From assembly GCF_010119205.1 (NCBI RefSeq), contig NZ_WRXM01000003.1, positions 62,001 through 126,000 of the forward strand: a stretch of 64,000 nt of DNA, written 5' to 3'. The DNA comes from Haloarcula limicola (lineage in GTDB: Archaea; Halobacteriota; Halobacteria; Halobacteriales; Haloarculaceae). Both the position numbers and the translations under genes were made by a program. Positions 25,631-54,166 of the stretch are shown here, in pieces. Below the pieces are notes generated by a model that saw only the letters and a list, made by a program, of their open reading frames with translations, was not told where the DNA came from and searched no databases. The stretch's first letter is position 1; each line of letters begins with the position of its first letter.

Positions 25631-26584
25631 ATGACAGAGATCGGCTACACCCTATCGAGCGAAGAGCACGGACCGAACGACCTCGTCGACCACGCGCGGA
25701 AAGCGGAGGAGATCGGCTTCGACTTCCTCTCTATCTCCGACCACTACCACCCGTGGGTCCCCGAGCAGGGCGACGCGCCGTTCGTCTGGTCCACCCTCGG
25801 CGGCGTCGCCGAGGCGACGACGGACGTCGACGTCGGGATCGGCGTCTCCGCGCCCATCATGCGCATCCACCCGGCCCTCTACGCGCAGGCCAGCGCGACG
25901 GCGGCGACGATGTTCGAGGGCCGCGAGTTCTACGCCGGGGTCGGCACCGGCGAGAGCCTGAACGAGCACATCTACGGCGACCACTGGCCCGAACACGCGG
26001 TCCGCCTGGAGATGTTAGAGGAGGCCGTCGACGTAATTCGCTCGCTCTGGACGGGCGAGGAGGTCAGCCACCGCGGCGAGCACTACACCGTCGAGAACGC
26101 CCAGCTGTTCACCCTTCCCGAGGAGACGCCGCCCATCTGCGTCTCGGCGTACGGCCCGCGCGCCGCGCAGGCGGCGGCCGACGTCGGCGACGGTTTCTGG
26201 GCGGTCGGCCCGCAGGACACCGTCGAGACATGGGAGGAGAACGGCGGCGAGGGGCCGCGGTTCTGCCAACTCACGGCCTGCGTCGCAGACAGCGAGGAGG
26301 AGGCGGTCTCGACAGCCCACGAGCAGTGGCCCAACTCCGGCCTCGCCGGCGAGATGACCGCCATCCTCCCGACGCCGAGCCACTTCGAGCAGGCCACCGA
26401 GATGGTCTCCGAGGACGACATCGCCGAGAGCTCGATGCTCTGCGGGCCGGACGCCCAGCCGCACATCGACAGCATCCAGCGGGCGATCGACGCGGGTTAC
26501 GACCACGTCTACGTCCATCAGGTCGGCGACGACCAAGACGCGCTGTTCGAGCTCTACGAGGAGGAAGTCCTCCCGTCGTTCTAG
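25631..26584 (+). CDS. F420-dependent LLM oxidoreductase (TIGR03557-like)
   Basis: A 317-residue protein of the luciferase-like family close to F420-dependent glucose-6-phosphate dehydrogenase (TIGR03557 group). Motifs are IGYTLSSEEHGPNDLVDHAR, FLSISDHYHPWVPEQGDAPF, VWSTLGGVAEAT, GTGESLNEHIYGDHWPE and ICVSAYGPRAAQAAADVGDG. Haloarchaea make coenzyme F420 and carry several members of this group. The substrate is uncertain; a sugar phosphate is one option, but the haloarchaeal branch is uncharacterised. It is a single gene with its own promoter region. Confidence 0.85.
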   Translation: MTEIGYTLSSEEHGPNDLVDHARKAEEIGFDFLSISDHYHPWVPEQGDAPFVWSTLGGVAEATTDVDVGIGVSAPIMRIHPALYAQASATAATMFEGREFYAGVGTGESLNEHIYGDHWPEHAVRLEMLEEAVDVIRSLWTGEEVSHRGEHYTVENAQLFTLPEETPPICVSAYGPRAAQAAADVGDGFWAVGPQDTVETWEENGGEGPRFCQLTACVADSEEEAVSTAHEQWPNSGLAGEMTAILPTPSHFEQATEMVSEDDIAESSMLCGPDAQPHIDSIQRAIDAGYDHVYVHQVGDDQDALFELYEEEVLPSF

Positions 26585-33172: not shown

Positions 33173-34021
33173 TTAGTCCCGTTCCGCCGTGACGGGGTTA
33201 GTCAGCGTTCCGATGCCCTCGATCTCGACGTCGACGGTGTCGCCGGGTTCGAGCAGTTCGGGCGGGTCGCGGAAGATACCGACGCCGCCGGGGGTACCCG
33301 TGGAGATGACGTCGCCGGGGCGCAGCGTCGTGAACCCGCTGATGTACTCGACGACCTCCTCGACGCCGAAGATGAACTCCTCGGTGTTCGAGGACTGCTT
33401 GGTGTCGCCGTTGACGCGACAGGCGACGTCCAGACTAGAGGGGTCGAGTCGGTCGTCGGGGACGAGCGTCGGTCCCATCGGCGCGAACGTGTCGTAGCTC
33501 TTCCCGCGGAAGAACTGGCCGTCGTCGAACTGCGCGTCGCGGCCGCTCACGTCGTTTATCGCCGTGTAGCCCGCGACGTACTCCCGCGCCTCGTCGGCGG
33601 AGACGTTCTTCGCCGTCCGACCGATGACGACGCCCAACTCGACCTCGTAGTCGACGTCGTCGAGGTCGTCGGGATGAACGATGGGGTCGCCGGGGTTGGT
33701 GACGGCCGCGCCGGCCTTCCCGAACAGGAGCGGTCGCTCGGGGACCTCCTCGTCCTGTTCTTCGGCGTGGTCGTGGTAGTTCAGCCCGACGCAGACGATC
33801 TTTCCCGGTCGCGGTACCGGCGCGAGGAGTCGCGCGTCCGCGACGGGGACGGCGTGGTCCTCGGCGGCGTCGACGGCGTCTTCGACGACCCGCAGGAAGC
33901 CCGGGTCGGTCAGTTGCTGATAGGTGATATCTTCTCGGAGTCCGGTCAACGGGACGATTTCGTCGTCGCGGCGGACGCCCCACGCCGGAGTGTCGCCTGT
34001 GGTGTATCGAACGAACTGCAT
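33173..34021 (-). CDS. Fumarylacetoacetase-family hydrolase, probable 2,4-diketo-3-deoxy-L-rhamnonate hydrolase
   Basis: A 282-residue FAH-family protein. The N-terminal domain is QFVRYTTGDTPAWGV. The catalytic part has KIVCVGLNYHDHAEEQDEEV, the metal site YEVELGVVIGR, then DVSGRDAQFDDGQFFRGKSY, SNTEEFIFGVEEVVEYIS and GDVISTGTPGGVG. FAH proteins hydrolyse carbon-carbon bonds of diketo acids. In the non-phosphorylative rhamnose route, 2,4-diketo-3-deoxyrhamnonate is split to pyruvate and L-lactate by a member of this family. The setting (IclR regulator, rhamnonate dehydratase, MDR dehydrogenase, lactate oxidation) makes that role likely. The ATG at 34021 is used rather than the TTG three bases upstream. 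Confidence 0.8.
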   Translation of the reverse strand: MQFVRYTTGDTPAWGVRRDDEIVPLTGLREDITYQQLTDPGFLRVVEDAVDAAEDHAVPVADARLLAPVPRPGKIVCVGLNYHDHAEEQDEEVPERPLLFGKAGAAVTNPGDPIVHPDDLDDVDYEVELGVVIGRTAKNVSADEAREYVAGYTAINDVSGRDAQFDDGQFFRGKSYDTFAPMGPTLVPDDRLDPSSLDVACRVNGDTKQSSNTEEFIFGVEEVVEYISGFTTLRPGDVISTGTPGGVGIFRDPPELLEPGDTVDVEIEGIGTLTNPVTAERD

Positions 34022-34072
34022 CAACGGGTACTGCCAGCGCGGAGAACCTAACTGTTGTGTTCGAGACCGACC

Positions 34073-34831
34073 CTACGAGTAGGTCAGGTTCACCTCGATG
34101 ACGTTCGCGCTGCGGAGGATCTGGTCCGGAACCTCGTCGGTGAATCGCTCTTCCTGCATCCGGCTCTTCGGACCGGAGACGCTCACCGCGGCGATCGCGT
34201 AACCGTCGTCGTCGACGATGGGGGCCGCGATACAGCGCATCCCCTTGACGCGCTCCTCGTCGTCGTAAGCGTACCCTCGCTCCCGGACCTGATCGAGCGT
34301 ATCGAAGAGTTCCGCGCTGTCGGTTATCGTCTGCTCGGTCACCTCCGGGAGCCCGTGGCGGTCGAGAATCGCCTCGACCTCCGCTCGCGGCCGAAACGCC
34401 ATGATGGTCTTTCCCAGCGCCGTCGTCTGCAGCGGAACGCGCATCCCGGCGTGGGTGTCCAGCTGAACCGCGTTCTGTCCGCGCGCTTTGTACAGGAAGA
34501 CGCCGAGCCCGTGTTCCTCGATCATGAAGTTGGCGTGTTCGCCGGTCTTCTCGGCCAGTTCGTCTATCTCCGGGCGGGCTATCTCGAAGACTTTCTGTCG
34601 TGACCGGGCCTGATTGCCCAACTGGAGGAAGCGAGTGCTGACGTAGTACTCGTTGCCCTCCTTGACGAGGTACTCCTCCTGTTCCAGCGTCCGGAGATGG
34701 TCGTGGATAGTGCTCGTCGGCTTATCGAGGCGCTGAGCCACCTCGGAGACGCCGGCACCTTCGAGTTCGCGGAGCGTCTCGACGACTTCGAGCGAGATTT
34801 TCGCGGCCTTGACGGGCACGGGTTCGGTCAT
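34073..34831 (-). CDS. IclR-family regulator 1 of the rhamnose cluster
   Basis: A 252-residue IclR regulator. The winged HTH (residues 10-70) reads ISLEVVETLRELEGAGVSEV, AQRLDKPTSTIHDHLRTLEQ. The effector-binding domain (about 80-250) has FMIEEHGLGVFLYKARGQNA, LQTTALGKTIMAF and RCIAAPIVDDDGYAIAAVSV-SGP, the family's ligand pocket signature. It ends VIEVNLTYS, as does regulator 2 (44750), its paralogue. It lies 51 bases upstream of the hydrolase gene and is probably co-transcribed. It likely responds to a rhamnose-derived acid and may activate or repress the cluster. Confidence 0.88.
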   Translation of the reverse strand: MTEPVPVKAAKISLEVVETLRELEGAGVSEVAQRLDKPTSTIHDHLRTLEQEEYLVKEGNEYYVSTRFLQLGNQARSRQKVFEIARPEIDELAEKTGEHANFMIEEHGLGVFLYKARGQNAVQLDTHAGMRVPLQTTALGKTIMAFRPRAEVEAILDRHGLPEVTEQTITDSAELFDTLDQVRERGYAYDDEERVKGMRCIAAPIVDDDGYAIAAVSVSGPKSRMQEERFTDEVPDQILRSANVIEVNLTYS

Positions 34832-34976
34832 GTCCCTACCAAAGATAGGTCTCGAAAAAAGCTTTTCCGTCATCGCCGGAACGAATGTCCCACTTCGCCG
34901 AAGCGGGGGCCAAACTACCGAACCTGATCGTTACTGTCTGTGATCTTCGCTGGCGATGGTCGCCGGCTACTCCGGA

Positions 34977-36008
34977 TTACCGGAACTCCGGCATGACCTC
35001 GTCGGCGAACAGTTCCATCCCGTCGGTGTCGGGGAAGTCGATGAACCAACACTGGAACTTCGTCACGCCGGCCTCGATCCGCCGCTCGATCGCCTCTGCG
35101 CACTCTTCCGGGGTGCCTATGACGAAGTACTCGCGGGCGTCCTCGGCGGTCCGAATCGGTGCCTGGTCCTGGTACTCCTCCTCGAACTGGATCGGCGTCA
35201 TCAGATCCACCATCCGGTCGAACTTCTCCTCGTCGCGGGTGCAGATGACGTGGCCGTCCCAGGAGTACTCGACGTCGTCGGGGTCGCGACCGACGGTGCC
35301 ACAGTGGTCCTCGATGACGCCGATCTTGTGGTTCAGCGTCTCGACGTCGCCGTTGAACACGTCGGTGTTCCAGACGTCGGCGTGTTTAGCGACCAGTTTG
35401 AGCGTCACCTCCTCGCCCTGTCCGCCCACCAGAATCGGCGGGTGCGGGTCCTGCACGGGCGTCGGGGCGCACGGGGCGTCCTCTATCTGGTAGTGATCGC
35501 CGTCGAAGCTCGCGCCGTCGCCGCCGGCGTCCCACATCCGCTTCATCAGGCGGATCGACTCGTCTAAGCGCATCAGGCGCTCGAAGCCGTCGCGGTACTC
35601 CCAGTCGTAGGCCTCGTACTCGGGCTCGTGCCACCCAGCGCCGAGACCGAGTTCCAGTCGACCGTCCGAAATGACGTCGAGCGTCGCCGCCATCTTCGCC
35701 ACCAGCGCGGGGTTGCGGTAGTCGTTACAGAGGACGAGCGAACCGAGGTTGATGTCCTCTGTGAAGCCGGCCATCGCCGACAGGAGCGTCCAGCACTCGT
35801 ACTCGGCACGGTCCCGGCCCAGCATCAGGTGGTCCGGTGCCCACGCCGCGTCGAAGCCCAGTTCTTCGGCTTTCTCGATGCCCATTCGTGTGGTCTCCCA
35901 GTCGAGGGCCTCGTACGCCGGCGTATCGCGGTGGACGGGTTCGTCGTCGCCGGCGTCCGGCGCACCAGCGAAGACGGGGACGTTGTACTCGAAGCTAATC
36001 TCGGGCAT
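34977..36008 (-). CDS. LLM-class oxidoreductase in the rhamnose operon
   Basis: A 343-residue luciferase-like protein: ISFEYNVPVFAGAPDAGDDE, GIEKAEELGFDAAWAPDHLM, LCNDYRNPALVAKMAATLDV, DGRLELGLGAGWHEPEYEAY and PPILVGGQGEEVTLKLVAKH. It is a group using FMN or F420. Its ATG lies two bases after the stop of the rhamnonate dehydratase gene, so the two are translated from one mRNA. No LLM enzyme belongs to the known rhamnose route; it may act on an intermediate, on a related sugar acid, or carry electrons via F420. The longer open frame upstream overlaps the dehydratase and is discarded. Confidence 0.82.
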   Translation of the reverse strand: MPEISFEYNVPVFAGAPDAGDDEPVHRDTPAYEALDWETTRMGIEKAEELGFDAAWAPDHLMLGRDRAEYECWTLLSAMAGFTEDINLGSLVLCNDYRNPALVAKMAATLDVISDGRLELGLGAGWHEPEYEAYDWEYRDGFERLMRLDESIRLMKRMWDAGGDGASFDGDHYQIEDAPCAPTPVQDPHPPILVGGQGEEVTLKLVAKHADVWNTDVFNGDVETLNHKIGVIEDHCGTVGRDPDDVEYSWDGHVICTRDEEKFDRMVDLMTPIQFEEEYQDQAPIRTAEDAREYFVIGTPEECAEAIERRIEAGVTKFQCWFIDFPDTDGMELFADEVMPEFR

Positions 36009-36010
36009 GG

Positions 36011-37216
36011 TCACTCCAGTGCGAAGTGGTCGAGCGCTTCGCGGTTGAGTTCGGCGCTTAAACCGACGCCGTCGGGGAGCGGGATGACGCCGTCGTTCGC
36101 GTCGGGCGGGTGCTGGTAGATGGCGTCGGCGTACGTCGAGTCCTTCTCGCCCTGTCGCTTCTGGTACCATTCGGGGATCGGGAAGTACTCCGCCATCGGC
36201 GCGTTGGTCGAGGCCGCGATGAAGTGCAGGTGCGGGTTCGTCCCCGTGTGCGGGATGATCGGCACGTCGTGGGCGCTGGCCATCGCGTCGACGCGCTGGA
36301 GTTCGGTCAGGCCGCCCATCCGGTGGACGTCGGGCTGGAGGATGTCGACCGCTTCCTTTTCGAGCATCTCCTTGTACCCCCACCGGGTGAACTCGTGCTC
36401 GCCGCCAGAGATGGGTACGTCCGTCGAGGCTCTGAGCTCCGCGTAGCCGTCGAGGTCGTCGGGGATGACCGGCTCCTCGACCCACTCCATGTCGTACTTC
36501 TCCAGCCGCTGGAGCATCTTCTTCGCGTACCGAACTGACCAGCCCATGTAGGCGTCGCCGGCGAGTTTGATGTCGTGGCCGACGGCCTCTCTGACCGTCC
36601 GGACGATCTCCTCGTTCTTCTCCATGCCCTTCCGCCCGGCCTCGGGGCCGTACTGGAAGCGCAGTTTCATCGCGTCGAAGCCAGCCTCGACGTAGTCCAT
36701 CGCCTCGCGTTCGAGTGTGTCGAGGTCGACCGGATGGAGATTGCTCGCGTAGCAGTCGATCTCGTCCTCGACGGGGCCGCCGAGCAGTTCGTACACCGGC
36801 TTCTCGGCCTCTTTCCCGGCGATGTCCCAGAGCGCGAGGTCGACGGCGCTGATGGCCTCGATGGCCGCGCCCTTCCGACCGAACGGGATCGTCGCGCGGT
36901 ACATGATATCCCAGAGCCGCTCGCGCTCAGTCGGGTCCTCGCCGACGACGAGCTTCGAGAGCGTCTCGTCGACGATGGTCTCGATCGCGCCGGTCGCCCA
37001 GTTGCCGTGGCCGACGCCCGTGATGCCGGCGTCGGTCTCGACCTCGACGACGACGTCGCCGACCGGTCCCATCCAGTTCCGGCGGGCCTGCGGGTTGTCG
37101 CCCTCGGCGTTATTGTACTCCTCGTACTTGCTCATCACCGTGACGAGCGGGAACTCGACGAACTCGCCCCAGGACTCCGTACTGACCTTGGTCGCGGATA
37201 TATCCGTGATCTCCAT
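36011..37216 (-). CDS. Enolase-superfamily sugar-acid dehydratase, probable L-rhamnonate dehydratase
   Basis: A 401-residue member of the mandelate racemase / muconate lactonizing enzyme group. The N-terminal cap has RRNWMGPVGDVVVEVETDAG and PFGRKGAAIEAISAVDLALW. The barrel has MKLRFQYG, the metal ligands in LAGDAYMGW (Asp), WVEEPVIPDD (Glu) and SGGEHEFTRW (Glu), and the catalytic His in VPIIPHTGTN. The RhmD-like pattern NWMGPVGD and DLALWDIAGK with LGGPVEDEI points to L-rhamnonate dehydratase, which makes 2-keto-3-deoxy-L-rhamnonate. A TATA-like AAGATATTAG (37249-37258, minus strand) lies 33-42 bases before the ATG. Confidence 0.82.
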   Translation of the reverse strand: MEITDISATKVSTESWGEFVEFPLVTVMSKYEEYNNAEGDNPQARRNWMGPVGDVVVEVETDAGITGVGHGNWATGAIETIVDETLSKLVVGEDPTERERLWDIMYRATIPFGRKGAAIEAISAVDLALWDIAGKEAEKPVYELLGGPVEDEIDCYASNLHPVDLDTLEREAMDYVEAGFDAMKLRFQYGPEAGRKGMEKNEEIVRTVREAVGHDIKLAGDAYMGWSVRYAKKMLQRLEKYDMEWVEEPVIPDDLDGYAELRASTDVPISGGEHEFTRWGYKEMLEKEAVDILQPDVHRMGGLTELQRVDAMASAHDVPIIPHTGTNPHLHFIAASTNAPMAEYFPIPEWYQKRQGEKDSTYADAIYQHPPDANDGVIPLPDGVGLSAELNREALDHFALE

Positions 37217-37332: not shown

Positions 37333-38364
37333 TCACTCCGCGAACTGGAACACCGGTTTGCAGGTCTCCGAGTCGAGGAACGACTCGAAGGCGGCTCCGG
37401 GGTCGTCCGTGCTGAAGGAGGCGTCCAGTATCGCGTCGACGTCTATCTCCCCTCGTTCCATCAGTCGGAGCGCCTGCTCGAAGTTCGTCCACGTCGACCC
37501 GTAGGAGGTGTTGATGTCCACCTCGCCGCGGACCACGTCGGTCAGCGCGAACTCGCTGTCGTCGTTCGGGATGCCGACGACGACGACCTGTCCGCCCTTC
37601 CGGACGAACTCGGCGGCGGTCCCGACGCCGGTGTGATGGCCCGTCGAGTCGAACACGACGTCGAACCCGATGCCGTCGGTGAACGCCTCGGCGCGGTCTT
37701 CGAGGCTCTCGGACTGGGCGTTGATGGTCTCGATGCCGAGGTCCTCTAGCAACGGTAGCCGATACACCGCGTCCTGGTCGAGCCCGGAGACGACGACGTT
37801 CGCGCCAAGCGAGTCGGCGACGGCCGCCACGAGGACGCCGATCGGTCCCGGTCCCTCGATCAGGACGTTGTCGCCCGGCGTCGTCTCCGACTGACTGAAG
37901 ACCGCGCGAGTGGCGATGCTCGTCGGCTCCGTGATCGCCGCGTGCCGGAGCGGGACGTCTTCGGGGACGGCGTGGAGGTGTTTCGACTCGACCGCGACGT
38001 ACTCCGCGTAGGCCCCGTCTCTGTGCATTCCCGTGATAGAGAAGTTCTGACAGACGTTGGGCTGCCCGTTCTTACACTGGAAACACTGCCCGCAGTCGTG
38101 GATCGGTTCCTCGATGACTTTCTGTCCCTCGGTGAAGTCTTCCACGTCGGCTCCCACGTCGACGACTTCGCCGGAGTACTCGTGGCCCATGACACGAGGG
38201 ATGGGGATCCACTCGTACCCGCCGTCGTACTTGTAGGCGTGCGCGTCGCTCCCGCACAGCCCCGCCGTGTGGACCTTGACGAGAACTTCGTCCGCGTCTA
38301 TCGTCGGCATCTCCCGCTCCTGTGTCTCCACGGAACGGGGACCCGTCTGAACAATTGCTTTCAT
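37333..38364 (-). CDS. Zinc-dependent MDR dehydrogenase, probable 2-keto-3-deoxy-L-rhamnonate dehydrogenase
   Basis: A 343-residue medium-chain dehydrogenase/reductase. Motifs are LCGSDAHAYKYDGGYEWIPI (catalytic zinc Cys), RVMGHEYSGEVVDVG (His-Glu), the structural zinc loop DCGQCFQCKNGQPNVC and the Rossmann motif GPGPIGVLVAAVADSLGANV. It resembles sorbitol/threonine-type polyol dehydrogenases. In this cluster the missing step is oxidation of 2-keto-3-deoxyrhamnonate to the 2,4-diketo acid, which from memory is done by an MDR enzyme in Haloferax; that should be checked. The ATG at 38364 follows from the family start KAIVQTGP. Confidence 0.78.
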   Translation of the reverse strand: MKAIVQTGPRSVETQEREMPTIDADEVLVKVHTAGLCGSDAHAYKYDGGYEWIPIPRVMGHEYSGEVVDVGADVEDFTEGQKVIEEPIHDCGQCFQCKNGQPNVCQNFSITGMHRDGAYAEYVAVESKHLHAVPEDVPLRHAAITEPTSIATRAVFSQSETTPGDNVLIEGPGPIGVLVAAVADSLGANVVVSGLDQDAVYRLPLLEDLGIETINAQSESLEDRAEAFTDGIGFDVVFDSTGHHTGVGTAAEFVRKGGQVVVVGIPNDDSEFALTDVVRGEVDINTSYGSTWTNFEQALRLMERGEIDVDAILDASFSTDDPGAAFESFLDSETCKPVFQFAE

Positions 38365-38572: not shown

Positions 38573-39094
38573 ATGGCAACCACCGACACATCTTTCGAGC
38601 GCGCTCTGGACGAACTGGGCGTCTCGGTCACCCGCGCCGAGAGCGACACAGTTCGAGAACAGATCGAGGAGACCGCCATAGCACCGGCCATCGGCGTCCC
38701 GCTGGCGGAGACGTTCGGTGACACCGCGTTCTCGCTCGCGGAGACGTCCGTCGAGGTCGACCCGACGCCCGCGACGCTCCGCGACGCGACGACCGGCGTG
38801 ACCGGCGCGCAGTTGGGAATCGCGGACTACGGGACGCTCGTCCTCTCGCTGACGGAGCGGGCGAGCGAACTCGTGAGCCTCTTCGTCGAGCGACACGTCG
38901 CGGTCGTTCGAGCGGCCGACGTCGTCGGAGAGATGGACGCCGCGATCGAGGAACTGGACGCGGAGTTCTCGGAGACGCGTGGGAGCGCGATTCTGGCGAC
39001 CGGTCCCAGCGCGACGGCCGACATGGGGGCACTCGTGAAAGGCGCGCACGGCCCGAAGGAGGTCCACGTCGTCCTCGTCGAGGAGGGCGAGTGA
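38573..39094 (+). CDS. lutC: LUD-domain protein LutC-like (lactate utilisation)
   Basis: A 173-residue LUD-domain protein. GVPLAETFGDTAFSLAETSV, VTGAQLGIADYGTLVLSLTE and LFVERHVAVVRAADVVGEMD are characteristic, as is AILATGPSATADMGALVKGA-HGP near the end. LutC is one of three subunits of the non-flavin L-lactate dehydrogenase complex LutABC. It is transcribed divergently from the MDR dehydrogenase. The next gene carries the other two subunits. It starts with ATG at 38573. Confidence 0.85.
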   Translation: MATTDTSFERALDELGVSVTRAESDTVREQIEETAIAPAIGVPLAETFGDTAFSLAETSVEVDPTPATLRDATTGVTGAQLGIADYGTLVLSLTERASELVSLFVERHVAVVRAADVVGEMDAAIEELDAEFSETRGSAILATGPSATADMGALVKGAHGPKEVHVVLVEEGE

Positions 39095-39096
39095 CG

Positions 39097-41277
39097 ATGT
39101 CGAAAGCCGACGAACTCCGCGAGGTGATGCGCACCGAGGGCGCGGCCATCGCCGAGAACACGCAGGCCTTCAACGAGGGCCGATACGAGTCCGTCGCCGA
39201 CCTGGAGGACTACGAGGAACTGAAGTCCGAGGCGCGCGCCATCAAGGAGGACGCCATCGAGCGGCTTCCGGAGCTGCTCGACGAACTGACCGAGACCGTC
39301 GAGGAGAACGGTGGCACCGTCTATCTCGCCGACGACGCAGAGGACGCGAACGCCTACATCCGCGACGTTGTCGACGACCGCGAGGCGGAGCGCGTGGTCA
39401 AGAGCAAGTCGATGACCAGCGAGGAGATCGAGGTCAACGATGCGCTGAAAGCCGACGACGTGGACGTGGTGGAGACGGACTTAGGCGAGTGGGTCCTGCA
39501 GGTGGCCGACGAAGCGCCCTCCCACATCGTCGCGCCGGCCATCCACAAGTCCCGGGAGGCTATCGCCGAGTTGTTCAACGAGGTCTTCGACCCCGAGGAA
39601 CCGTTAGAGACCGCGCAGGAGCTGACTCACTTCGCCCGCGAGAAGTTGGGCGAACAGATCGTCGACGCCGAGGTCGGTATCACCGGTGCGAACTTCCTGG
39701 CGGCCGATACCGGGACGATGGCGCTGGTCACCAGCGAGGGCAACGCCCGCAAGACCGTCGCCGCGACGGACACCCAGATAACCGTCGCCGGTGTCGAGAA
39801 GATCGTCCCGAGCGTCGGCGACCTCGACCCCTTTATCGAACTCATCGGTCGGTCGGGGACCGGACAGGACATCACCTCCTACGTCTCTCTATTGACCCCG
39901 CCCGTCGACACGCCGGTCGTGGACTTCGAGGACGACGAGACGCCCCTCTCGGAGTTCGATAGCGACCGGGAGTTCCACCTCGTGCTCATCGATAACGGTC
40001 GCATGGCGATGCGCGAGGACGACCAGCTCCGGGAAACGCTGTACTGCATCCGCTGTTCCGCCTGTTCGAACTCCTGTGCGAACTTCCAGAGCGTCGGCGG
40101 CCACGCCTTCGGCGGCGAGACCTACTCGGGCGGCATCGCCACCGGCTGGGAGGCCGGCATCGAGGGGCTCGACGTCGCCGAGGAATTCAACGACCTCTGT
40201 ACGGGCTGTACCCGATGCGTGAACGCCTGTCCGGTCGAGATCGACATCCCGTGGATCAACACGGTCGTCCGCGACCGCATCAACCGCGAGGGCGAGCGCC
40301 CCGCCGACTGGCTCGTCGACGGCCTCGTTCCCGACGAGGAAGACGAGGGCGCGCCCCTGCAGAAGCGCTTCTTCGGCAACTTCGAGACGGTCGCGAAACT
40401 CGGGAGCACCACCGCGCCGCTCTCGAACTGGCTCGCGGACACCTCGGCCTCGCGGTGGGCCATGTCGTGGGCGCTCGACATCGACCCCCGCCGGGACCTC
40501 CCGACGTTCGAACGCGAGACGCTGGTCGAGTGGGCCGGGAAGCGCGATTCGACGGTCTCCGATCCCGAGCGCCGAGCGGTCCTCTACCTGGACCTCTACA
40601 CGAACCACGTGCAGGTCGACCGCGGCAAGGCGGCGGTGAGGGCGCTCGAAGCGCTCGGCGTCGACGTGGTCGTGCCCGAAGCGCCCTCTAGTGGGCGCGC
40701 GCCGCTCTCACAGGGGATGGTCGCAACCGCACAGGACCACGCCGAGCGAGTCGTGGACTCGCTCTCGCCACACGTCGAGGACGGCCGCGACATCGTCGTG
40801 GTCGAACCGAGCGACCACGCGCTGTTCCAGCGCGAGTACGAGAAACTGCTCGATTCCGCCGCGTTCACCGACCTCGCCGAGAACAGCTACGAGGTGCTGG
40901 AGTACGTCTACGGTCTCCTCGACAACGGAGCCGACGGCTCGGCGCTGACGACGGCCGAGGGCGACGAGATCGCCTATCACAGCCACTGTCAACAGCGAAC
41001 CCTCGGACTGGAGGCCCACACCGTCGCCGTGCTGGAGGAGTGTGGCTACAACGTTGTCACCTCGGACGTGGAGTGCTGCGGGATGGCCGGCAGTTTCGGC
41101 TACAAGGGCGACTACTACGAAGTCAGCATGGACGTCGGCGACCGCCTGCGCGGACAGCTCCAGGCCGAGGGCGTCCGCGACCGCCCGGTCGTCGCCAGCG
41201 GCACCTCCTGTCTCGAACAGATAGATTCGCTCCTCGAACGGCAACCCCGTCATCCGGTCGAACTGCTCGTAGACTGA
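39097..41277 (+). CDS. Fused LutB-LutA iron-sulfur lactate oxidation protein
   Basis: A 726-residue fusion. Residues 1-300 are the LUD domain of LutB (GITGANFLAADTGTMALVTS, GRSGTGQDITSYVSLLTPP). Residues 310-390 hold two 4Fe-4S motifs, CIRCSACSNSCANF and CTGCTRCVNACPVEI. The C-terminal 230 residues are a LutA-like CCG domain pair, with HSHCQQRTLG and VECCGMAGSFGYKG as Cys-rich cofactor motifs. With LutC it should oxidise L-lactate to pyruvate, feeding electrons to the membrane. In bacteria LutA and LutB are separate, so the fusion is notable. The ATG at 39097 is used; a GTG at 39091 overlapping the lutC stop is possible. Confidence 0.85.
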   Translation: MSKADELREVMRTEGAAIAENTQAFNEGRYESVADLEDYEELKSEARAIKEDAIERLPELLDELTETVEENGGTVYLADDAEDANAYIRDVVDDREAERVVKSKSMTSEEIEVNDALKADDVDVVETDLGEWVLQVADEAPSHIVAPAIHKSREAIAELFNEVFDPEEPLETAQELTHFAREKLGEQIVDAEVGITGANFLAADTGTMALVTSEGNARKTVAATDTQITVAGVEKIVPSVGDLDPFIELIGRSGTGQDITSYVSLLTPPVDTPVVDFEDDETPLSEFDSDREFHLVLIDNGRMAMREDDQLRETLYCIRCSACSNSCANFQSVGGHAFGGETYSGGIATGWEAGIEGLDVAEEFNDLCTGCTRCVNACPVEIDIPWINTVVRDRINREGERPADWLVDGLVPDEEDEGAPLQKRFFGNFETVAKLGSTTAPLSNWLADTSASRWAMSWALDIDPRRDLPTFERETLVEWAGKRDSTVSDPERRAVLYLDLYTNHVQVDRGKAAVRALEALGVDVVVPEAPSSGRAPLSQGMVATAQDHAERVVDSLSPHVEDGRDIVVVEPSDHALFQREYEKLLDSAAFTDLAENSYEVLEYVYGLLDNGADGSALTTAEGDEIAYHSHCQQRTLGLEAHTVAVLEECGYNVVTSDVECCGMAGSFGYKGDYYEVSMDVGDRLRGQLQAEGVRDRPVVASGTSCLEQIDSLLERQPRHPVELLVD

Positions 41278-41299: not shown

Positions 41300-42169
41300 C
41301 TACGACAGTCCGACGTGTTCCCGGAACGCCCGTTCGGTGATCCACGCTCGGTCTTTCTCGGATAGCGAGTCCACTTGTCGGAGCCAGTTGTACGCTTCCG
41401 GATAGCTGGCGACGTCGCTGACGTTCGGGTAGTCCGACCCCCAGATCACGCGCTCGCGGCCGAACGTATCGAGGAACCACCGGACGTGGTCGTGCATGTC
41501 CGCGTAGGGGAACGAAGTCTCGGACATGTGGGGGATCTCCGAGACTTTCACCGCGACGTTCTCGTAGGACGCGAGGTCCGCAAACTGGGCGAACGTCCTC
41601 TCGTCGGTCGGCGTCTCCGGCCCCGCGTGCGCGAAGTGGTCGAAGAGGTAGGTGAGGTCGGGGTAGGTCTCGACGAGGTCGAGCGCCTGATCCAGTTGGC
41701 CGTGGTCACAGAGAATCTGGACGGCGGCGTCCGTCTCGACGGCGGCCTCCCAGAACTCGGTCTCCTCGACGGCGTCCCGCAGCCACGTCACGTCCGGGTC
41801 GAACGTCTCCCACATCCGGTCGTAGGGGCAGGCCGCGCCGAGGCGGAAGCCGAGGACGCCGTCGGTCGCCATGCACTCTCGGAGATGGTCGACCGCGTCG
41901 TCGGCGAACGGGTCCAGCATCACGATACCGTGCAGGCGGTCGTATTCGGCCGCCACCCGTCGGGTGTACCAGTTGTCCGTCCAGTCGCAGATGGGGTAGC
42001 CGACGACGACCGCCTCGTCGACGCCGTTCCGGTCCATGTCGGCGAGGAGTCGGTCGGCCGTGTAGACGGTGTGTACGTCGAACTCGTCGACGAGATCCAG
42101 CAGCGGCCCGTTCACCCAGGGGTGGTCGTCGCTCGCCGCGCCCCAGGCGTGGGTGTGGGTATCGAGCAT
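41300..42169 (-). CDS. Amidohydrolase-family 2 protein, probable rhamnono-lactonase
   Basis: A 289-residue metal-dependent hydrolase of the COG3618-like amidohydrolase 2 group. The N-terminal HxH is in MLDTHTHAWG, the second metal region in YLFDHFAHAGPETPTDE and VAVKVSEIPHMSE, and the Asp ligand in RVIWGSDYPNVSDVASYPEA. This group includes sugar lactonases (for example fuconolactonase). In this cluster it is the best candidate for opening L-rhamnono-1,4-lactone. The ATG at 42169 begins the domain exactly; the longer upstream frame overlaps the divergent promoter of the mutarotase gene and is discarded. Confidence 0.75.
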   Translation of the reverse strand: MLDTHTHAWGAASDDHPWVNGPLLDLVDEFDVHTVYTADRLLADMDRNGVDEAVVVGYPICDWTDNWYTRRVAAEYDRLHGIVMLDPFADDAVDHLRECMATDGVLGFRLGAACPYDRMWETFDPDVTWLRDAVEETEFWEAAVETDAAVQILCDHGQLDQALDLVETYPDLTYLFDHFAHAGPETPTDERTFAQFADLASYENVAVKVSEIPHMSETSFPYADMHDHVRWFLDTFGRERVIWGSDYPNVSDVASYPEAYNWLRQVDSLSEKDRAWITERAFREHVGLS

Positions 42170-42244: not shown

Positions 42245-42547
42245 ATGGAGCGAATAGCGTTCCACCTCCGCATCGAGGAGGGGAAACGAGAGGCGTATCG
42301 AGCGGAACACCAGGACGTACCGGAGGCGCTCGAATCGGCGTATCTCGACTCCGACGCCGGCCTGGAGACCTACAGCGTCTTCGAGAACGACGGGCACGTC
42401 TTCGGTTACATGGAGGTCGAAGACCCCGAGGCGATCAGGGCGGTCATGGAAGAGAGCGACGCGCAGGCCGACTGGGCCGAGGTGATGGAGCCCATCGTCG
42501 CCGACGAGGGGAGCCAGTGGATGGACGAGGTCTACCGGATGATCTGA
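42245..42547 (+). CDS. rhaM: L-rhamnose mutarotase
   Basis: A 100-residue RhaM-family protein that interconverts alpha and beta L-rhamnose. It shows ERIAFHLRIEEGKREAYRAE, HQDVPEALESAYLDSDAGLE, TYSVFENDGHVFGYMEVED and WAEVMEPIV...MDEVYRM, aligned by eye to the E. coli RhaM pattern (H...P.L...L...Y.I......L.F..VE...W...M......M.EVF). The presence of a dedicated mutarotase is strong evidence that the surrounding pathway is for rhamnose. It is convergent with the SDR gene, one base apart. Confidence 0.85.
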   Translation: MERIAFHLRIEEGKREAYRAEHQDVPEALESAYLDSDAGLETYSVFENDGHVFGYMEVEDPEAIRAVMEESDAQADWAEVMEPIVADEGSQWMDEVYRMI

Positions 42548-42548: not shown

Positions 42549-43370
42549 TCACCCCTTCAGATACCCGCCGTCGACGGCGATGGACTCGCCGGTTATCCAC
42601 TCGCCTTCGTCGGAGAGGAGTAACACGGCGACGTGGCCGATCTCTTCCGGTTGGGCTGGTCTATCGAGGATATGTGTCGAGAGCGAGTCGCGCATGACCT
42701 CTTCCGGCGTCTGTCCGCTCTGGTCGGCCTTCTCTTCGAGCCACTCCTCGACCATCGGCGTCTCGACCGTCCCCGGTTTGATGGCGTTGGCCGTGATGCC
42801 GTGGTCGCTGAGTTCCTTTGCCAGTACCGTGGTCAGCGTGAGCACCGCCGCCTTCGACGCGCCGTACGCTCCCTGTCCCCGGAACGGCCGTTCCGCGCCC
42901 ACCGACGAGACGTTCACGATGCTCCCCTCGACGCCGTCGGCGATCATCTGTTCGGCGACGTGCTTCGCGACGAGGAACGTCCCTCTGGCGTTGACCGCGA
43001 AGTGCCGGTCCCACTCCTCCGCGCTCGTCTCCAGTAGCGAGACCGACCGCTGGATGCCGGCGTTGTTGACCAGTCCGTGAATCGCGCCCAGCTCCGAAAC
43101 CGCCGTCTCGACGCCGGCAGCGACGGACGCTTCCTCGGAGACGTCGACGTCGATAACGGCCGCTTTCCCGCCTGCTTTTTCCACGAGTGTCGCCGTCTCT
43201 GTCGCCGTCTCGGGCCGCGTATCGAAGATCGAGACGTTCGCACCGGCGCGGGCACACCGCTGAGCGATACCCCGGCCGATTCCCTGTGCGGCACCGGTGA
43301 CGACGATGTGCCGGCCCGCGAGCCGCGAGTCCGAGTGCTCCGCTACGTCCGACTGCATATCTCCCTGCAT
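42549..43370 (-). CDS. SDR-family dehydrogenase, probable L-rhamnose 1-dehydrogenase
   Basis: A 273-residue short-chain dehydrogenase. The cofactor motif is HIVVTGAAQGIGRGIAQRCA, the NNAG motif is GLVNNAGIQRS, the catalytic Ser and YxxxK are in VNVSSVGAERPFRGQGAYGA-SKA, and EWITGESIAVDGGYLKG ends the fold. The Asp after beta-2 (FDTRPE) suggests preference for NAD. It should oxidise L-rhamnose to the lactone, the first committed step. KduD-type activity is an alternative. The start is taken as the ATG at 43370; a second ATG at 43358 is possible. A perfect 15-bp palindrome lies 71-85 bases upstream. Confidence 0.8.
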   Translation of the reverse strand: MQGDMQSDVAEHSDSRLAGRHIVVTGAAQGIGRGIAQRCARAGANVSIFDTRPETATETATLVEKAGGKAAVIDVDVSEEASVAAGVETAVSELGAIHGLVNNAGIQRSVSLLETSAEEWDRHFAVNARGTFLVAKHVAEQMIADGVEGSIVNVSSVGAERPFRGQGAYGASKAAVLTLTTVLAKELSDHGITANAIKPGTVETPMVEEWLEEKADQSGQTPEEVMRDSLSTHILDRPAQPEEIGHVAVLLLSDEGEWITGESIAVDGGYLKG

Positions 43371-43440
43371 AGCGTCTCCAAAGCAGACCGTCGAGTTAAG
43401 CATAGGGGGTCGTAGCAGCAACGGCGTCGGTATCAGTTTG

Positions 43441-45656: not shown

Positions 45657-47258
45657 ATGTGCTATCAGATCACTGATTACGGCGATATCGACGGGGAGGA
45701 CGCCACCTGCGCGTTCCGAGCGGCGGTCGACGCCTGTGCCGACGACGGCGGCGGAACGGTCCGCGTGCCCCCCGGCGAGTACGAGACGGGGTCCGTCTCG
45801 CTCGCGGACGACGTCACCGTCTCGATCGCTCCGGGCGCGACCGTTCGCGCCAGTTCGGACGAAGCGGACTATCAGTGCCCGGACGAGTACGTCGGTCCCG
45901 ACGGCGAGCGACCGCTCTTTCTCGCTCGCGACTGCGCGAACGTCTCGATAACGGGCGGTGGCACGGTCGACGGACGTGGCACGGATATCACGAAGATGGA
46001 CGAATCCATTCGACAGCACTCCGGACAGTCCTCGGCGTCCCCGCTCGTCAGCGACGGCGAGCATCGGGCGCGACAGGGCGAGGCCTTCCTCGACCCCGCC
46101 GATGGGACCGAGGAGTGGCCGGTGGCGAAACCCGCGTTTCGGCCGGGTCCGGTGCTCTGTTTCGACGGCTGCCGGGACGTCGCGGTCAGCGACGTCACCC
46201 TCCGAGACATGCCGGCGTGGACCCTCACCCTCCGGAACTGCGAATCGGTCACGGTCGCCGGCGTCACCGTCGACAACCATATGCGGATACCGAACTGCGA
46301 CGGGATCTCCGTCGAGGGGTCGCGCGACGTCCGCGTCTCGGACTGCTCGATACGGGCCTGCGACGACGCGATCACGCTGAAGGCGAAGGATGCAGGCCAG
46401 CCCTGCGAGGCGGTCACCGTGACGAACTGTACGCTCGCATCTCGGGCCTGTGCCGTCAAGATCGGATCCGAAACGAGCGGCTCCATCCGTGACTGCACGG
46501 TCGCCAACTGCCTCGTGCGCGACTCGAACCGTGGGCTCGGTATCCAGCACCGCGACGGCGGTGACGTAGAGCGAATCCGGTTTGCCGACGTCACGGTCGA
46601 GACGCGCCTCTTCGAGGGGCCGTGGTGGGGGAAGGCGGAACCGATCTACGTCACGTCGGTTCCCCGCGACGAAGCGACGGACCTCGGCCGCGTCAGGGAC
46701 GTCCGGTTTTCGAACGTCGACGCGCGTTGTGAGAGCGGTGCGCTGGTGTACGGGCACGAGGACGCCGCGGTCGAGAACGTGCGGTTCGACGGCGTTCGAC
46801 TCGACGTCCGCGACCCCTCGGCAGCCGATGCGGTCGGCGGGAATATCGACCTCCAGCCCACGAGCGTTCGACCCCCGATCGCGGCTCACGACGTGCCGGC
46901 GATCCACTGCGAGAACATCGCCGGGCTCGACCTCGCAGACGTTGCAGTCGAGTGGGGCCACGACCTCCCGTCGTATCACACGCACGGCGTCGGCTGCGTC
47001 GGCGTCGAGGACGTGACGATAGACGGCTTCGACGGCGGTCCCGCTCATCCCGACACCGGGGACGTCGCGCTGTCCTTACGGGACTGTTCGACCGTCACCG
47101 TCCGGAATTCGCGGGCGCGTCCGGCGACCGGGACGTTCCTCGAAGCGGCCGATACCGACGACGAGCGCCTGTTCGCCGGCAACGACCTCGCGGACGCAGA
47201 GCGGATGATCGCGGGGGAGACCGATTTCACCGTCGTCGGCAACGCAACGCCGCGATGA
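45657..47258 (+). CDS. GH28 glycoside hydrolase (polygalacturonase or rhamnogalacturonase type), intracellular
   Basis: A 533-residue right-handed beta-helix hydrolase of family GH28. The catalytic aspartates are visible: Asp215 in IPNCDGIS and Asp236-Asp237 in ACDDAITLK, spaced as in the family. The next conserved region is AVKIGSETSG (268-275), where classical polygalacturonases carry GHG, so the substrate may differ. The N-terminus (QITDYGDIDGEDATCAFRAA) lacks a signal peptide, so it acts on imported oligomers, as seen in cytoplasmic exo-acting GH28 enzymes. It diverges from IclR regulator 2 across an operator candidate. The substrate is probably an oligomer of galacturonate, perhaps with rhamnose. 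Confidence 0.82.
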   Translation: MCYQITDYGDIDGEDATCAFRAAVDACADDGGGTVRVPPGEYETGSVSLADDVTVSIAPGATVRASSDEADYQCPDEYVGPDGERPLFLARDCANVSITGGGTVDGRGTDITKMDESIRQHSGQSSASPLVSDGEHRARQGEAFLDPADGTEEWPVAKPAFRPGPVLCFDGCRDVAVSDVTLRDMPAWTLTLRNCESVTVAGVTVDNHMRIPNCDGISVEGSRDVRVSDCSIRACDDAITLKAKDAGQPCEAVTVTNCTLASRACAVKIGSETSGSIRDCTVANCLVRDSNRGLGIQHRDGGDVERIRFADVTVETRLFEGPWWGKAEPIYVTSVPRDEATDLGRVRDVRFSNVDARCESGALVYGHEDAAVENVRFDGVRLDVRDPSAADAVGGNIDLQPTSVRPPIAAHDVPAIHCENIAGLDLADVAVEWGHDLPSYHTHGVGCVGVEDVTIDGFDGGPAHPDTGDVALSLRDCSTVTVRNSRARPATGTFLEAADTDDERLFAGNDLADAERMIAGETDFTVVGNATPR

Positions 47259-47306
47259 GTCGGCGGAGAAATCTGACGACGGAACGGCGGTAGCCCGTCG
47301 ACCGTC

Positions 47307-49361
47307 TCAGAGGATTCGCACGTCGTCGAGCGCGCCGGTACTCCGGACGCCGATGCCGCCGTCCTCGAACGTCTCGTCGGTCGCCGCCACGGACGCCACC
47401 GCGTTCCCGTCGGGGTCGCGGAGTTCGACGTCGATATCGCCGAGCGACGCCCAGTCGACGACGAAGTCGTAGAGGACGCCGGTCTCGACCGAGAGGCTCG
47501 ATTTGGCCAGTTCGGTGTACTCGCCGCCGACGCGCTTGTAGAGCTGGAGCCTGTCGCTCGATCCCTCGGGGTAGACCCGGGCGAAGTAGAAGTTCTGTGC
47601 ATCCTGCACGCCGAAGGCGACGCCGAGATTGTCGTTCATCGCCGTCCGCGCGGCCGCCGCAGCGAACGTATCGCCTGCCTGCGGATACCGCGGGAGGCCG
47701 CTCGTCGAGGTGACGATGGCCGTGCCGCCGGACGTGTTCTTCAGGCTCCTCTCCCCGTCGCCCACCGGCGGTTCGCCGTTGACGACGTAGGCGTCGGTCG
47801 CGCCGTCGTACTCGGCGAGGTCACCGTCCTCGAAGCTATCGACGACGCCCGAGCGGTCGCCCCCGCCCGCTTCCACCTGTTCGGTGACGAGGTTCCCCTC
47901 ATTGTCCACACGGACCCGGTACTGGTCCGATCCGTCCGGCGTCGTGAGCACCGCGCCGTTGCCGTCGCCCGGTACTCGGACGTCGTCGTCTTCGACCACG
48001 AACGACGCTTCGTCGCCGCCGCCGGCGTGGAAGGCGTGAGAGTCGTAGGTCCGGTGGCGCTCGGTCCCGTCGTCGAACCAGCGCGTCGACCCCGCCGCGT
48101 CGTCGGCGACGACGGGTCGCGGGCGCACGTTCTGCTGGTCGAAGTGCCGGACGTACTCCAGGTCGGTGCCGACCTCGGCGTTGTAGCAGTCGACGTTCTG
48201 GATGTAGACCCCGTCGTGGCGGTTCCCCTCGCCGTCGGTCACATCGGCGACGTCGACGCCGCTGTGGTAGCCCATCGCGTTGTGACGCTCGCGGACGTTC
48301 TGGATGGATATCTTCCGCACCGCTGTCTCCGAGTTCTCCAGTTTGACGATGCTCTCGCTCACCGACTGGAGCGGATGGCCGCCGCACTGGATGGAGTCGA
48401 GGTTGATCGTCGCGCCGCCGTCGATGCGGATGCTGTGCTCGCCGCCGCCGCCGCGCCAGTTGTAGATGTCGAGGTCGAAGGCAGGACCGTACGGGATGTC
48501 GTCGCTGCCGGGTTTCGCGAGGAACCCGTCTCGACAACCGGTCACTTCCGTATCGAGGACGGTGAGTTCGCTGGAGCCGTGGTAGTCGGCGAGCCGGATG
48601 CCCGCGGGCACCGTGTTCCGTCCTTCGAGGTTCTGGAGGTACATCCGGGAGATGTGCATGTGCCCGACGCCCTGAATGTCGACGAAGGAGCGTTCGAGGT
48701 TCTCCTTCGCGTAGAACATCCCGCCGTTGAGCGTGATGTTCTCCGTCTTCTCGTCCGGGCCGACGACGAAGAAGCTCTCGATGGTGTCGGTCGCGTAGAT
48801 GAGCGTCCAGCCCATGTCGAAGACGAGCTTGCCCGTATTGTTCGCGATGACCATCGGCGACTCGACGCGCCACGCGGGCAGCCCGTCGGCCGCGGCGGGG
48901 TCGTCGGGGTCCGGCGCGGGGATGACGATGCGGTGCCCCGGCTGTTGGTTCGGGATGTCGTCGCCGCCGGGGAGCGCTTCGAGGACGTTCTCGACCTTCT
49001 GGTCGAGCGTCTCGCCCGGGTACTCCGTGACGACGTGGATAGACCCGGGGGTACAGCTGTCGGCGTTGAGCGTCCCGTCCGTCACCGAGAGGTTCGCGCC
49101 GGCGAGCTCCGAAACCGGCGCGTCGCCCGCCGACATCGAGAGCGACCCGAGACCTGACAGGGCGTGTCCGTTCGCATCGACGTCGCCGTCCCAGTCGTAC
49201 CAGGGCTGATTACCGCCGTTACCGTTGTCCTGACGAGCGCTGGCGGTTCCCGTTATGAGGCCGCCGAGCCCGGTCCCCAGTAACCCGAGCGTTCCACGCC
49301 GCGAGATCGCGCTCTCCTCTGTCGATTCGTCGCTATTGGTATCTGTCTCGTCGTAGCTCAT
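47307..49361 (-). CDS. Tat-exported beta-helix protein with concanavalin-like C-terminal domain
   Basis: A 684-residue exported protein. The Tat signal is at residues 20-43 (SRRGTLGLLGTGLGGLITGT). A short GNQPWYDWDGDVDANGHAL motif follows. The centre (about 100-430) is a pectate-lyase-like right-handed beta-helix with IRLADYHGSSELTVLDTEVT and GGEHSIRIDGGATINLDSI. The C-terminal 180 residues (VVDSFEDGDLAEYDGATDAY, LGVAFGVQDAQNFYFARVY) look like a concanavalin-A-like binding domain. A polysaccharide lyase or hydrolase acting outside the cell is likely, but no lyase catalytic motif can be named. The start was chosen for the Tat signal. A TATA box (AAATTATAAAT, near 49408-49418, minus) lies about 50 bases upstream. 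Confidence 0.72.
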   Translation of the reverse strand: MSYDETDTNSDESTEESAISRRGTLGLLGTGLGGLITGTASARQDNGNGGNQPWYDWDGDVDANGHALSGLGSLSMSAGDAPVSELAGANLSVTDGTLNADSCTPGSIHVVTEYPGETLDQKVENVLEALPGGDDIPNQQPGHRIVIPAPDPDDPAAADGLPAWRVESPMVIANNTGKLVFDMGWTLIYATDTIESFFVVGPDEKTENITLNGGMFYAKENLERSFVDIQGVGHMHISRMYLQNLEGRNTVPAGIRLADYHGSSELTVLDTEVTGCRDGFLAKPGSDDIPYGPAFDLDIYNWRGGGGEHSIRIDGGATINLDSIQCGGHPLQSVSESIVKLENSETAVRKISIQNVRERHNAMGYHSGVDVADVTDGEGNRHDGVYIQNVDCYNAEVGTDLEYVRHFDQQNVRPRPVVADDAAGSTRWFDDGTERHRTYDSHAFHAGGGDEASFVVEDDDVRVPGDGNGAVLTTPDGSDQYRVRVDNEGNLVTEQVEAGGGDRSGVVDSFEDGDLAEYDGATDAYVVNGEPPVGDGERSLKNTSGGTAIVTSTSGLPRYPQAGDTFAAAAARTAMNDNLGVAFGVQDAQNFYFARVYPEGSSDRLQLYKRVGGEYTELAKSSLSVETGVLYDFVVDWASLGDIDVELRDPDGNAVASVAATDETFEDGGIGVRSTGALDDVRIL

Positions 49362-49484
49362 AGTGTGCGCTGCGTTGCCACAGCGCATTTGATGTGTGAT
49401 GCTCATCATTTATAATTTCTGTACGCGGACCGGATCAGTCTGGCCGGCGTCGAATGTGACTCTCCGAGCCCGGCCCAACGATAG

Positions 49485-49493
49485 TTTTATATA
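49485..49493 (+). promoter_or_regulatory. TATA box of the ABC importer operon
   Basis: TTTTATATA lies 24-32 bases before the ATG of the solute-binding protein gene, fitting a leaderless transcript. A degenerate operator-like TCTGGTATTGTGGA (49501-49514) lies between it and the ATG, overlapping the expected transcription start, a position suited to repression. Confidence 0.5.
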
Positions 49494-49516
49494 GTTCGAC
49501 TCTGGTATTGTGGACT

Positions 49517-51043
49517 ATGGAACGTGATAGTCGCGGCTCCAGTACGGCTAGTCGAAGAAGCGCGCTCTCCCGGCGGCAGTTCGTCGCGACGGTGGGCGCA
49601 TCGGGACTCACGGTCGGACTGGCAGGCTGTTCGAATACCGGTAGTGGTGGCGATGGCGGCGACGGCGGCGGTGACGGTAACAGCGGCGGCGGAACGTCCA
49701 CGGAAGACCTCGAGTACAACGGCGAAGACGTCACCGTCGAGTACAGCACAGCGCCGCTGTTCGGCAACGTCGCCGACATGCTGAAAGAGACGCTGTACGA
49801 GGTCGGACTGCCGGAGAGCATCGACGTCAACTTCTCCACGACGGTATGGGGGGCCGACGACCTGCAGTCCCGGTACAACCAGATACTCTCGGCCGGTCGC
49901 GCGACGCCGGACATGATGCTCACGAACTTCTCGTACACGCCCTACTTCGCGCCGCGGGAGTGGCTGCTCGACCTCTCGGAGGTCCTCGGCGACGAGAAGA
50001 TGAACGCCCTCGAGAACGACTACTCGCAGGTGATGGTCGACTCGATGACGTGGGAGGGCGGCCTGTACGGCATCCCGCAGTTCATCGACATCCCTACCAT
50101 CCAGTACCGGAAGGACCTCGTGAAAGAGGCCGGCTACGACCCCGAGGGCGAGAACTGGGCCACGGAGCCGATGAAATGGAACCGGTTCGCGAAGGTCGTC
50201 GCCGACACCAAGGAACAAGCGGGCACCGACGACGGCTACACCGTGGCGCTCAACCAGCGTAACATCGGTTCCATCGCCGGATACGAGCAGCTGGTGACCA
50301 ACGGGGGCAACTACTTCGGCGACATGTCGAACCAGAACGGTCCCGTCGGCGATCGGCCGGTTACCATCAACGAGGAGCAGACTATCCGGACGCTCCGACA
50401 GCTCCGGACGTTCATGTACGGGAGCGAGGACGAGTACGCCATCGAGGGGCTCTCGGGGAACATCACGCCCACCGAGGCGCTCGGCTGGGACACCAACCCG
50501 TCCATGGAGTCGTTCTCGGCCGGCGAGGCCGTGGCTCACCGGAACTGGTCGTTCGCCATTGCCGACTACGGCGCGGAGGAGAACTTCGGCGACAGCCTCG
50601 GTGTGATGCCGTATCCGTACGGGACGAGCGAGGACGAGGCCCCCTACGAGGGAACCGGCGGTTCCAACGCCAAACTGGGCGGCTGGCACCTCTCGATAAA
50701 TCCGAACACGGAACGCCTCGCCGCGACGGTGGAAGTCATCAACGCCATGACGACCGACGAGTTCTACATGACCATCTTCGAGGAGCTGGGGTCGACGCCG
50801 CCGAAGCCGGGACTGCTGGAGAGCGACCGCGCACAGCAGATCGACGTGATGAACCGGTACCTCGATACGCTGCAGTATCAGGCACAGAACCAGTTCGCCC
50901 CGCCGCTGGTGGCCGTCTGGAGCGCCGAGAAATCGGCCATCGGCGAGCAGTTCCTGGCGTGTCTCAAGCGGGAGAAGTCGCCGACGGAGGCGGCCAAAGC
51001 CGCGCAGAACCAAGTTGAGCAGATAGAAAACCAGGAGGGGTGA
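49517..51043 (+). CDS. ABC sugar importer, Tat-exported solute-binding lipoprotein
   Basis: A 508-residue extracellular solute-binding protein (family 1). The signal SRRQFVATVGASGLTVGLAG-CSN is a Tat signal with lipobox cysteine near residue 38. A Gly/Asp/Ser linker follows. The mature domain has VEYSTAPLFGNVADMLKETL, LLDLSEVLGDEKMNALENDY, YGIPQFIDIPTIQYRKDLVK and GGWHLSINPNTERLAATVEV, the pattern of oligosaccharide-binding proteins. It captures the sugar outside the membrane for the permeases encoded downstream. A hairpin 2-18 bases after the stop separates it from the permease genes. Confidence 0.88.
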   Translation: MERDSRGSSTASRRSALSRRQFVATVGASGLTVGLAGCSNTGSGGDGGDGGGDGNSGGGTSTEDLEYNGEDVTVEYSTAPLFGNVADMLKETLYEVGLPESIDVNFSTTVWGADDLQSRYNQILSAGRATPDMMLTNFSYTPYFAPREWLLDLSEVLGDEKMNALENDYSQVMVDSMTWEGGLYGIPQFIDIPTIQYRKDLVKEAGYDPEGENWATEPMKWNRFAKVVADTKEQAGTDDGYTVALNQRNIGSIAGYEQLVTNGGNYFGDMSNQNGPVGDRPVTINEEQTIRTLRQLRTFMYGSEDEYAIEGLSGNITPTEALGWDTNPSMESFSAGEAVAHRNWSFAIADYGAEENFGDSLGVMPYPYGTSEDEAPYEGTGGSNAKLGGWHLSINPNTERLAATVEVINAMTTDEFYMTIFEELGSTPPKPGLLESDRAQQIDVMNRYLDTLQYQAQNQFAPPLVAVWSAEKSAIGEQFLACLKREKSPTEAAKAAQNQVEQIENQEG

Positions 51044-51044
51044 G

Positions 51045-51061
51045 ACGGCCGTCGAGGCCGT
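51045..51061 (+). terminator. Hairpin between binding-protein and permease genes
   Basis: ACGGCC (51045-51050) and GGCCGT (51056-51061) form a 6-bp stem with a 5-base loop, followed by TTT. It starts one base after the stop of the binding-protein gene. Such structures often cause partial termination or protect the upstream mRNA, giving more binding protein than permease. Confidence 0.4.
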
Positions 51062-51136
51062 TTCGGACCGGCAACCGGACCGACAACTATCGTAAACTAC
51101 TAACCGATTGGCTTGGTCAAGCTTAGCACACACAAC

Positions 51137-52995: not shown

Positions 52996-53001
52996 TACAA
53001 C

Positions 53002-54165: not shown

Positions 54166-54166
54166 G

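Follow-up and report, generated by a model that had tools for sequence, protein, structure and literature searches.

On balance, we favour the view that a luciferase-like oxidoreductase (LLM), encoded directly downstream of the L-rhamnonate dehydratase in Haloarcula limicola, is an obligatory, probably F420-dependent component of the oxidative (diketo-hydrolase) L-rhamnose pathway of haloarchaea. The window analysed here is a stretch of 64,000 nucleotides (contig NZ_WRXM01000003.1, positions 62,001 to 126,000), and the features of its L-rhamnose cluster are listed in Table 1. Direct reading of the sequence places the dehydratase stop codon TGA at 36013-36011 and the LLM start codon ATG at 36008-36006, with bases 36010 and 36009 between them, which confirms the two-base spacing of the original prediction; judged from this spacing, the two proteins are probably co-translated. 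The LLM matches PF00296 with an E-value of 1.9e-52 (179 bits; gathering score 27.9) and is thus a member of the luciferase-like superfamily. The dehydratase matches PF13378 (1e-61) and PF02746 (1e-19), is 72-75% identical over its full length to records named rhcD, and carries residues D221, E247, E273, D296 and H323, which are invariant among 21 sequences. These positions are the metal ligands and the His-Asp of the enolase superfamily. By orthology and by these residues the protein is a predicted RhcD; its best-scoring model is the equivalog NF011968, at 257.6 bits and below the cut-off of 393.

Table 1. Features of the L-rhamnose cluster, in positions of the window.
Feature	Position	Strand	Basis or remark
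FAH-family 2,4-diketo-3-deoxy-L-rhamnonate hydrolase orthologue (RhcF)	33173..34024	-	
IclR-type regulator, directly downstream of LLM gene	34073..34873	-	
LLM (luciferase-like) oxidoreductase, 343 aa, probable F420-dependent hydride transferase	34977..36008	-	PF00296; TIGR03560; AF2 model
Two-base intergenic gap, dehydratase stop to LLM start	36009..36010	-	Probable stop-restart coupling; spacing stays within -4..+10 nt across 49 genomes
L-rhamnonate dehydratase orthologue (RhcD/RhaD, enolase superfamily), 401 aa, allele group A	36011..37216	-	Pfam, rhcD identity, tree
Further cluster gene	37333..38364	-	
LUD-domain protein (lactate oxidation, small)	38573..39094	+	
LUD/4Fe-4S protein (lactate oxidation, large)	39091..41277	+	
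L-rhamnono-lactonase orthologue (amidohydrolase-2 family, RhcC)	41300..42169	-	
L-rhamnose mutarotase (rhaM family)	42245..42547	+	PF05336
SDR dehydrogenase, likely NAD(P)-dependent L-rhamnose dehydrogenase	42549..43421	-	Orthologue in only 19/49 genomes

The cluster covers the whole diketo-hydrolase route for L-rhamnose, with an SDR, a mutarotase, a lactonase, the dehydratase, an MDR dehydrogenase (RhcE), RhcF and LUD proteins, the last of which oxidise the lactate formed by this route; it also contains two IclR regulators. Lactonase, dehydratase, KDRDH and diketo-hydrolase are found together, as in haloarchaeal rhc pathway clusters. NCBI annotation of orthologous clusters names rhcC, rhcD, rhcE and rhcF, presumably after the rhc system of Haloferax volcanii, and leaves the LLM without a name. 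As far as annotation goes, the earlier statement that no LLM is part of the known rhamnose route therefore holds. The rhc cluster of Haloferax volcanii and its L-rhamnose diketo-hydrolase pathway were reportedly described by Reinhardt et al. 2019. Likeness to that cluster was seen in the gene set of the other Haloferax genomes searched (mutarotase, lactonase, KDRDH, dehydratase, LLM, IclR, hydrolase and SDR), where the annotation again gives the LLM neither an rhc name nor a step. Unlike the Haloferax form, to which it is ~74% identical, the dehydratase of the window belongs to allele group A, and the lactate genes of the window sit inside the cluster. The LLM-bearing route is a variant of the known L-rhamnose pathway. 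Beside the rhamnose genes, the region 45657-57413 contains genes for a GH28 protein (polygalacturonase-type), an aldo/keto reductase, a ricin-lectin/beta-helix protein and ABC transporters; with these neighbours, the window looks like a locus for pectin/rhamnogalacturonan use.

Occurrence of the gene pair in this genome alone would, according to the original prediction, make a pathway role unlikely. Among 391 genomes from class Halobacteria, LLM orthologues (78-100% identity) are present in 49, and the dehydratase is present in the identical set of 49, so that this objection falls. The orthologue boundary is a clean fall from 78% to paralogues at ≤50% identity; paralogues with 38-50% identity, which lie in other clusters, were left out of the count. 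In every one of the 49 genomes the two genes are adjacent and co-directional, with the dehydratase first and the LLM next downstream, which is far beyond chance, and no LLM orthologue without the dehydratase was found in the 391 genomes. The gap between stop and start is 2 nt in 25 pairs (one of them with a GTG start, L089), 3 nt in 18, 1 nt in three, and 4 nt, 10 nt and a 4-nt overlap in one pair each. The tight coupling proposed for the window is thereby borne out, at -4 to +10 nt, in all 49 genomes.

A second, named genome collection gave the same picture with three exceptions. In one Salinarchaeum MAG (L159), the LLM orthologue adjoins a rhamnose mutarotase and no dehydratase lies nearby. 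At a second Salinarchaeum MAG locus (L168, 2316-7609), a ~60% identical LLM homologue is accompanied by a rhamnono-lactonase-like amidohydrolase, a Gfo/Idh-like oxidoreductase, a TIM-barrel isomerase-like protein and a hydrolase of the FAH family (names read from the translations), and an enolase-type dehydratase is absent from the contig. The third locus, in Halocatena marina (L166), has the look of a separated pair but was identified as a second copy in decay: of the dehydratase, residues 1-54 are left, the match to the LLM begins at residue 34 and has an interrupted frame, and another gene lies in between. Bacterial plasmid loci with a rhamnonate dehydratase (Variovorax, Sphingomonas, Ruegeria) have no LLM beside it, so that haloarchaea are the one group in which the pairing was observed, and none of the papers searched joins rhamnonate dehydratase with 'luciferase-like'. 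SAR202 bacteria, for which passages of one paper (PMC10444878) describe many enolase or flavin-monooxygenase paralogues and rhamnose growth, were set aside as a parallel, since those passages give no such gene pair.

The surroundings of the pair are highly variable, with 13 combinations of nearest neighbours. The LLM tree implies 15 changes of the upstream neighbour and 13 of the downstream one, without a single break of the pair. The dehydratase tree consists of two old groups, A (22 loci, with the window) and B (27 loci, with Haloferax); on the LLM tree, swaps between A and B dehydratases number 14 by parsimony, at least six of which are forced by well-supported branches, and the LLM is retained throughout. 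Clusters L104 and L105, a near-identical pair, share mostly 92-98% DNA identity on both sides of a dehydratase with 72-84%, and the exchanged block comprises the dehydratase gene and a short stretch upstream. A single gene was thus exchanged, with its junction to the LLM preserved. With 13-15 changes of neighbours and at least six replacements of the dehydratase beside a retained LLM, the comparison of these loci argues for selection, rather than a frozen operon, as what holds the pair together. With a mean pairwise identity of 84.9%, the LLM also tops the cluster in conservation (RhaD 81.6; the others 67-76, among them MDR 75.9, FAH 72.2 and lactonase 71.8). Retained in all 49 genomes and conserved above the core enzymes, it looks like a regular component of the route, which makes the 'side step' originally suggested for it doubtful.

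F420 is the likely cofactor of the LLM. The nearest curated models are F420 families, and the best-scoring one is TIGR03560 (Rv1855c), an F420-dependent LLM subfamily whose model description assigns no substrate. At 227.2 bits the LLM lies 4 bits below the cut-off of 231.4 and is thus a sister of this subfamily, not a certified member; two of its closest bacterial relatives score above the cut-off (266-274 bits). cofD is present in the LLM's own genome and in 13 of the 14 non-haloarchaeal genomes with the nearest LLM relatives, the exception being a small MAG. In a sample of 197 genomes from one bacterial phylum, all 10 genomes with an LLM relative are among the 27 with cofD (Fisher p 4e-10); eight of these 10 look closely related, so that fewer independent events underlie this value. 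In three bacterial loci (L218, L200, L206), LLM relatives lie ~2.5-4 kb from cofD. The LLM family is found in F420-producing organisms, as are F420-dependent luciferase-like hydride transferases. It also shares their Asp-His pair: D59-H60 is invariant in 63 of 63 sequences and aligns with the DH of Adf, fHMAD and Mer (His40 region of FGD, His39 of Adf), whereas alignments with the FMN-type proteins 3rao and 8vw6 show no such motif. The choice between an 'F420-linked or oxygen-using' activity left by the original prediction can accordingly be narrowed: genomic evidence makes the F420 link likely, and oxygen use is not supported, as F420 is an obligate hydride carrier.

Fold comparison was dropped as evidence between FMN and F420. 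The AF2 model of the LLM (pLDDT 93.9) is a TIM-barrel with Z-scores of 30-35 to structures of the family, and FMN and F420 enzymes are tied (35.0 for SfnG, 34.3 for Mer, 34.0 for Adf). Of the catalytic trio His, Trp and Glu of FGD and Adf, the LLM keeps His only, the Trp site being L63 and the Glu site W126 in all orthologues. It therefore falls outside the class of F420 sugar/alcohol dehydrogenases (FGD, FSD and Adf), which has Trp after the DH and Glu in GxGE. The LLM resembles the F420-dependent sugar dehydrogenases (FGD; Thermomicrobium Fgd, 9hav; FSD, PMC6279831) in fold, superfamily, D-H motif and carbohydrate context, but differs in these two residues. F420-dependent Mer (8qpl), the second-best PDB profile match, shares both the D-H motif and the lack of an FGD-type Trp/Glu, but is only ~23% identical and acts on a pterin C1 carrier. 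The window encodes a second LLM at 25631-26584, which scores 396.6 bits versus 210.4 for TIGR03557 and carries DHYHPW and GTGE motifs, with the catalytic Trp and Glu in place; by model and motif, it belongs to the F420 sugar/alcohol dehydrogenase class.

We propose that the LLM is a TIM-barrel hydride-transfer enzyme, most likely working with coenzyme F420, which would be made with the dehydratase from one message by stop-restart translation, hence at a fixed ratio, and would act on a pathway metabolite. As the candidate step we tentatively put forward a C1 oxidation that turns L-rhamnose into the lactone, parallel to or replacing the patchy SDR. In its fullest form, which is somewhat more speculative, this proposal would make the LLM an F420-dependent L-rhamnose 1-dehydrogenase with a new type of active site, and haloarchaeal sugar breakdown would feed electrons into F420. 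Among the route enzymes in the 49 genomes, the SDR rhamnose dehydrogenase is the sole patchy one (19 genomes), with KDRDH present in 48 and the hydrolase in 46. In 23 of the 30 genomes lacking the SDR, no other recognisable sugar dehydrogenase was found in the 20-kb stretch, which leaves the LLM as the sole unassigned oxidoreductase recognised there; other dehydrogenases may lie elsewhere in those genomes. Paralogous LLMs (~47% identity) have genes for sugar dehydrogenase, mutarotase and lactonase as neighbours, a context that points to an early, sugar-level part of such pathways. An aldose/lactone couple is able to reduce F420, a secondary alcohol hardly so, which makes aldose-to-lactone oxidation the better match for this cofactor with its redox potential of -340 mV (PMC6279831). 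Against a C1 step, L63 and W126 stand where known F420 sugar dehydrogenases have Trp and Glu, a pattern nearer to the reductase Mer, and all 19 SDR-bearing genomes also retain the LLM, so that LLM and SDR are no simple substitutes. Together with possible dehydrogenases elsewhere, these points are why we hold the C1 step as tentative and the general claim as favoured on balance. A role of the LLM as KDRDH replacement was set aside, given the near-universal presence of KDRDH.

The main rival to C1 oxidation places the LLM behind the dehydratase, as an F420-dependent enzyme that carries out a second oxidation of 2-keto-3-deoxy-L-rhamnonate or an F420H2-dependent repair of a damaged or unsaturated side product, and we regard it as a possibility to be taken just as seriously. 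Synthesis in a fixed ratio with the dehydratase would make direct sense if the LLM acted on its product, the LLM gene always directly follows the dehydratase gene, the active site with its retained D-H and missing FGD Trp/Glu is nearer to Mer than to the dehydrogenases, and one genome (G226) has the LLM but no KDRDH orthologue. The other 48 genomes do have KDRDH, however, and the two Salinarchaeum loci count against this reading, with the LLM or its homologue beside a mutarotase or a lactonase and no dehydratase nearby or on the contig.

A different cofactor and substrate are assumed if the LLM is taken as an FMN-dependent monooxygenase for a modified rhamnose (methylated, sulfated or glycosidic). 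The fold is common to FMN monooxygenases, one of which, SfnG, gives the best Z-score, W126 aligns with a Trp of 3rao, and the PGAP label is 'flavin-dependent' in most records; we nevertheless consider this unlikely, as the LLM family tracks F420 biosynthesis and the D-H motif is missing from 3rao and 8vw6. An enzyme for a modified sugar would moreover be expected to be patchy, whereas the LLM is universal in these clusters, and those annotated clusters that were inspected showed neither a sulfatase nor a demethylase. The methylated or sulfated rhamnose of the original prediction hence finds no support, while a regular role in catabolism of plain rhamnose does. It is, finally, very improbable that the pair is kept by operon inheritance and joint transfer only, with the LLM having some general or redundant function unconnected with rhamnose. 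The clusters frequently reside on megaplasmids, so that gene sets can travel together, but the LLM outlasts both the changes of neighbours and the replacements of the dehydratase, never occurs without the dehydratase in the 391 genomes, and shows the highest conservation in the cluster.

The role of F420 in haloarchaea has been called enigmatic, as just a single reaction that depends on it has been reported there (PMC8305020). The LLM is a probable F420 enzyme tied without exception (49/49) to a defined and genetically tractable sugar pathway, which also occurs in Haloferax, a genus with routine methods for deleting genes and testing growth; a rhamnose route regarded as complete thus has a regular component beyond the enzymes with an assigned step. 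Should the LLM be an F420-dependent rhamnose 1-dehydrogenase, it would give F420 a physiological role in haloarchaea that live aerobically and would provide the first step that is missing where genomes lack the SDR.

Two loci with a paralogous LLM of ~47% identity (L216, 21183-25724; L122, 5395-12101) also contain a 'glucose 1-dehydrogenase' SDR, a second rhaM-type mutarotase and an SMP-30 lactonase. LLMs of this type are 83-86% conserved among their own close kind, and the loci probably represent another oxidative sugar pathway. In Haloterrigena turkmenica, a strain without the SDR, plasmid pHTUR01 carries a mycofactocin biosynthesis cluster (mftA, B2, C, E, F; L211, 24293-29098) at a distance of ~7 kb from the rhamnose LLM gene.
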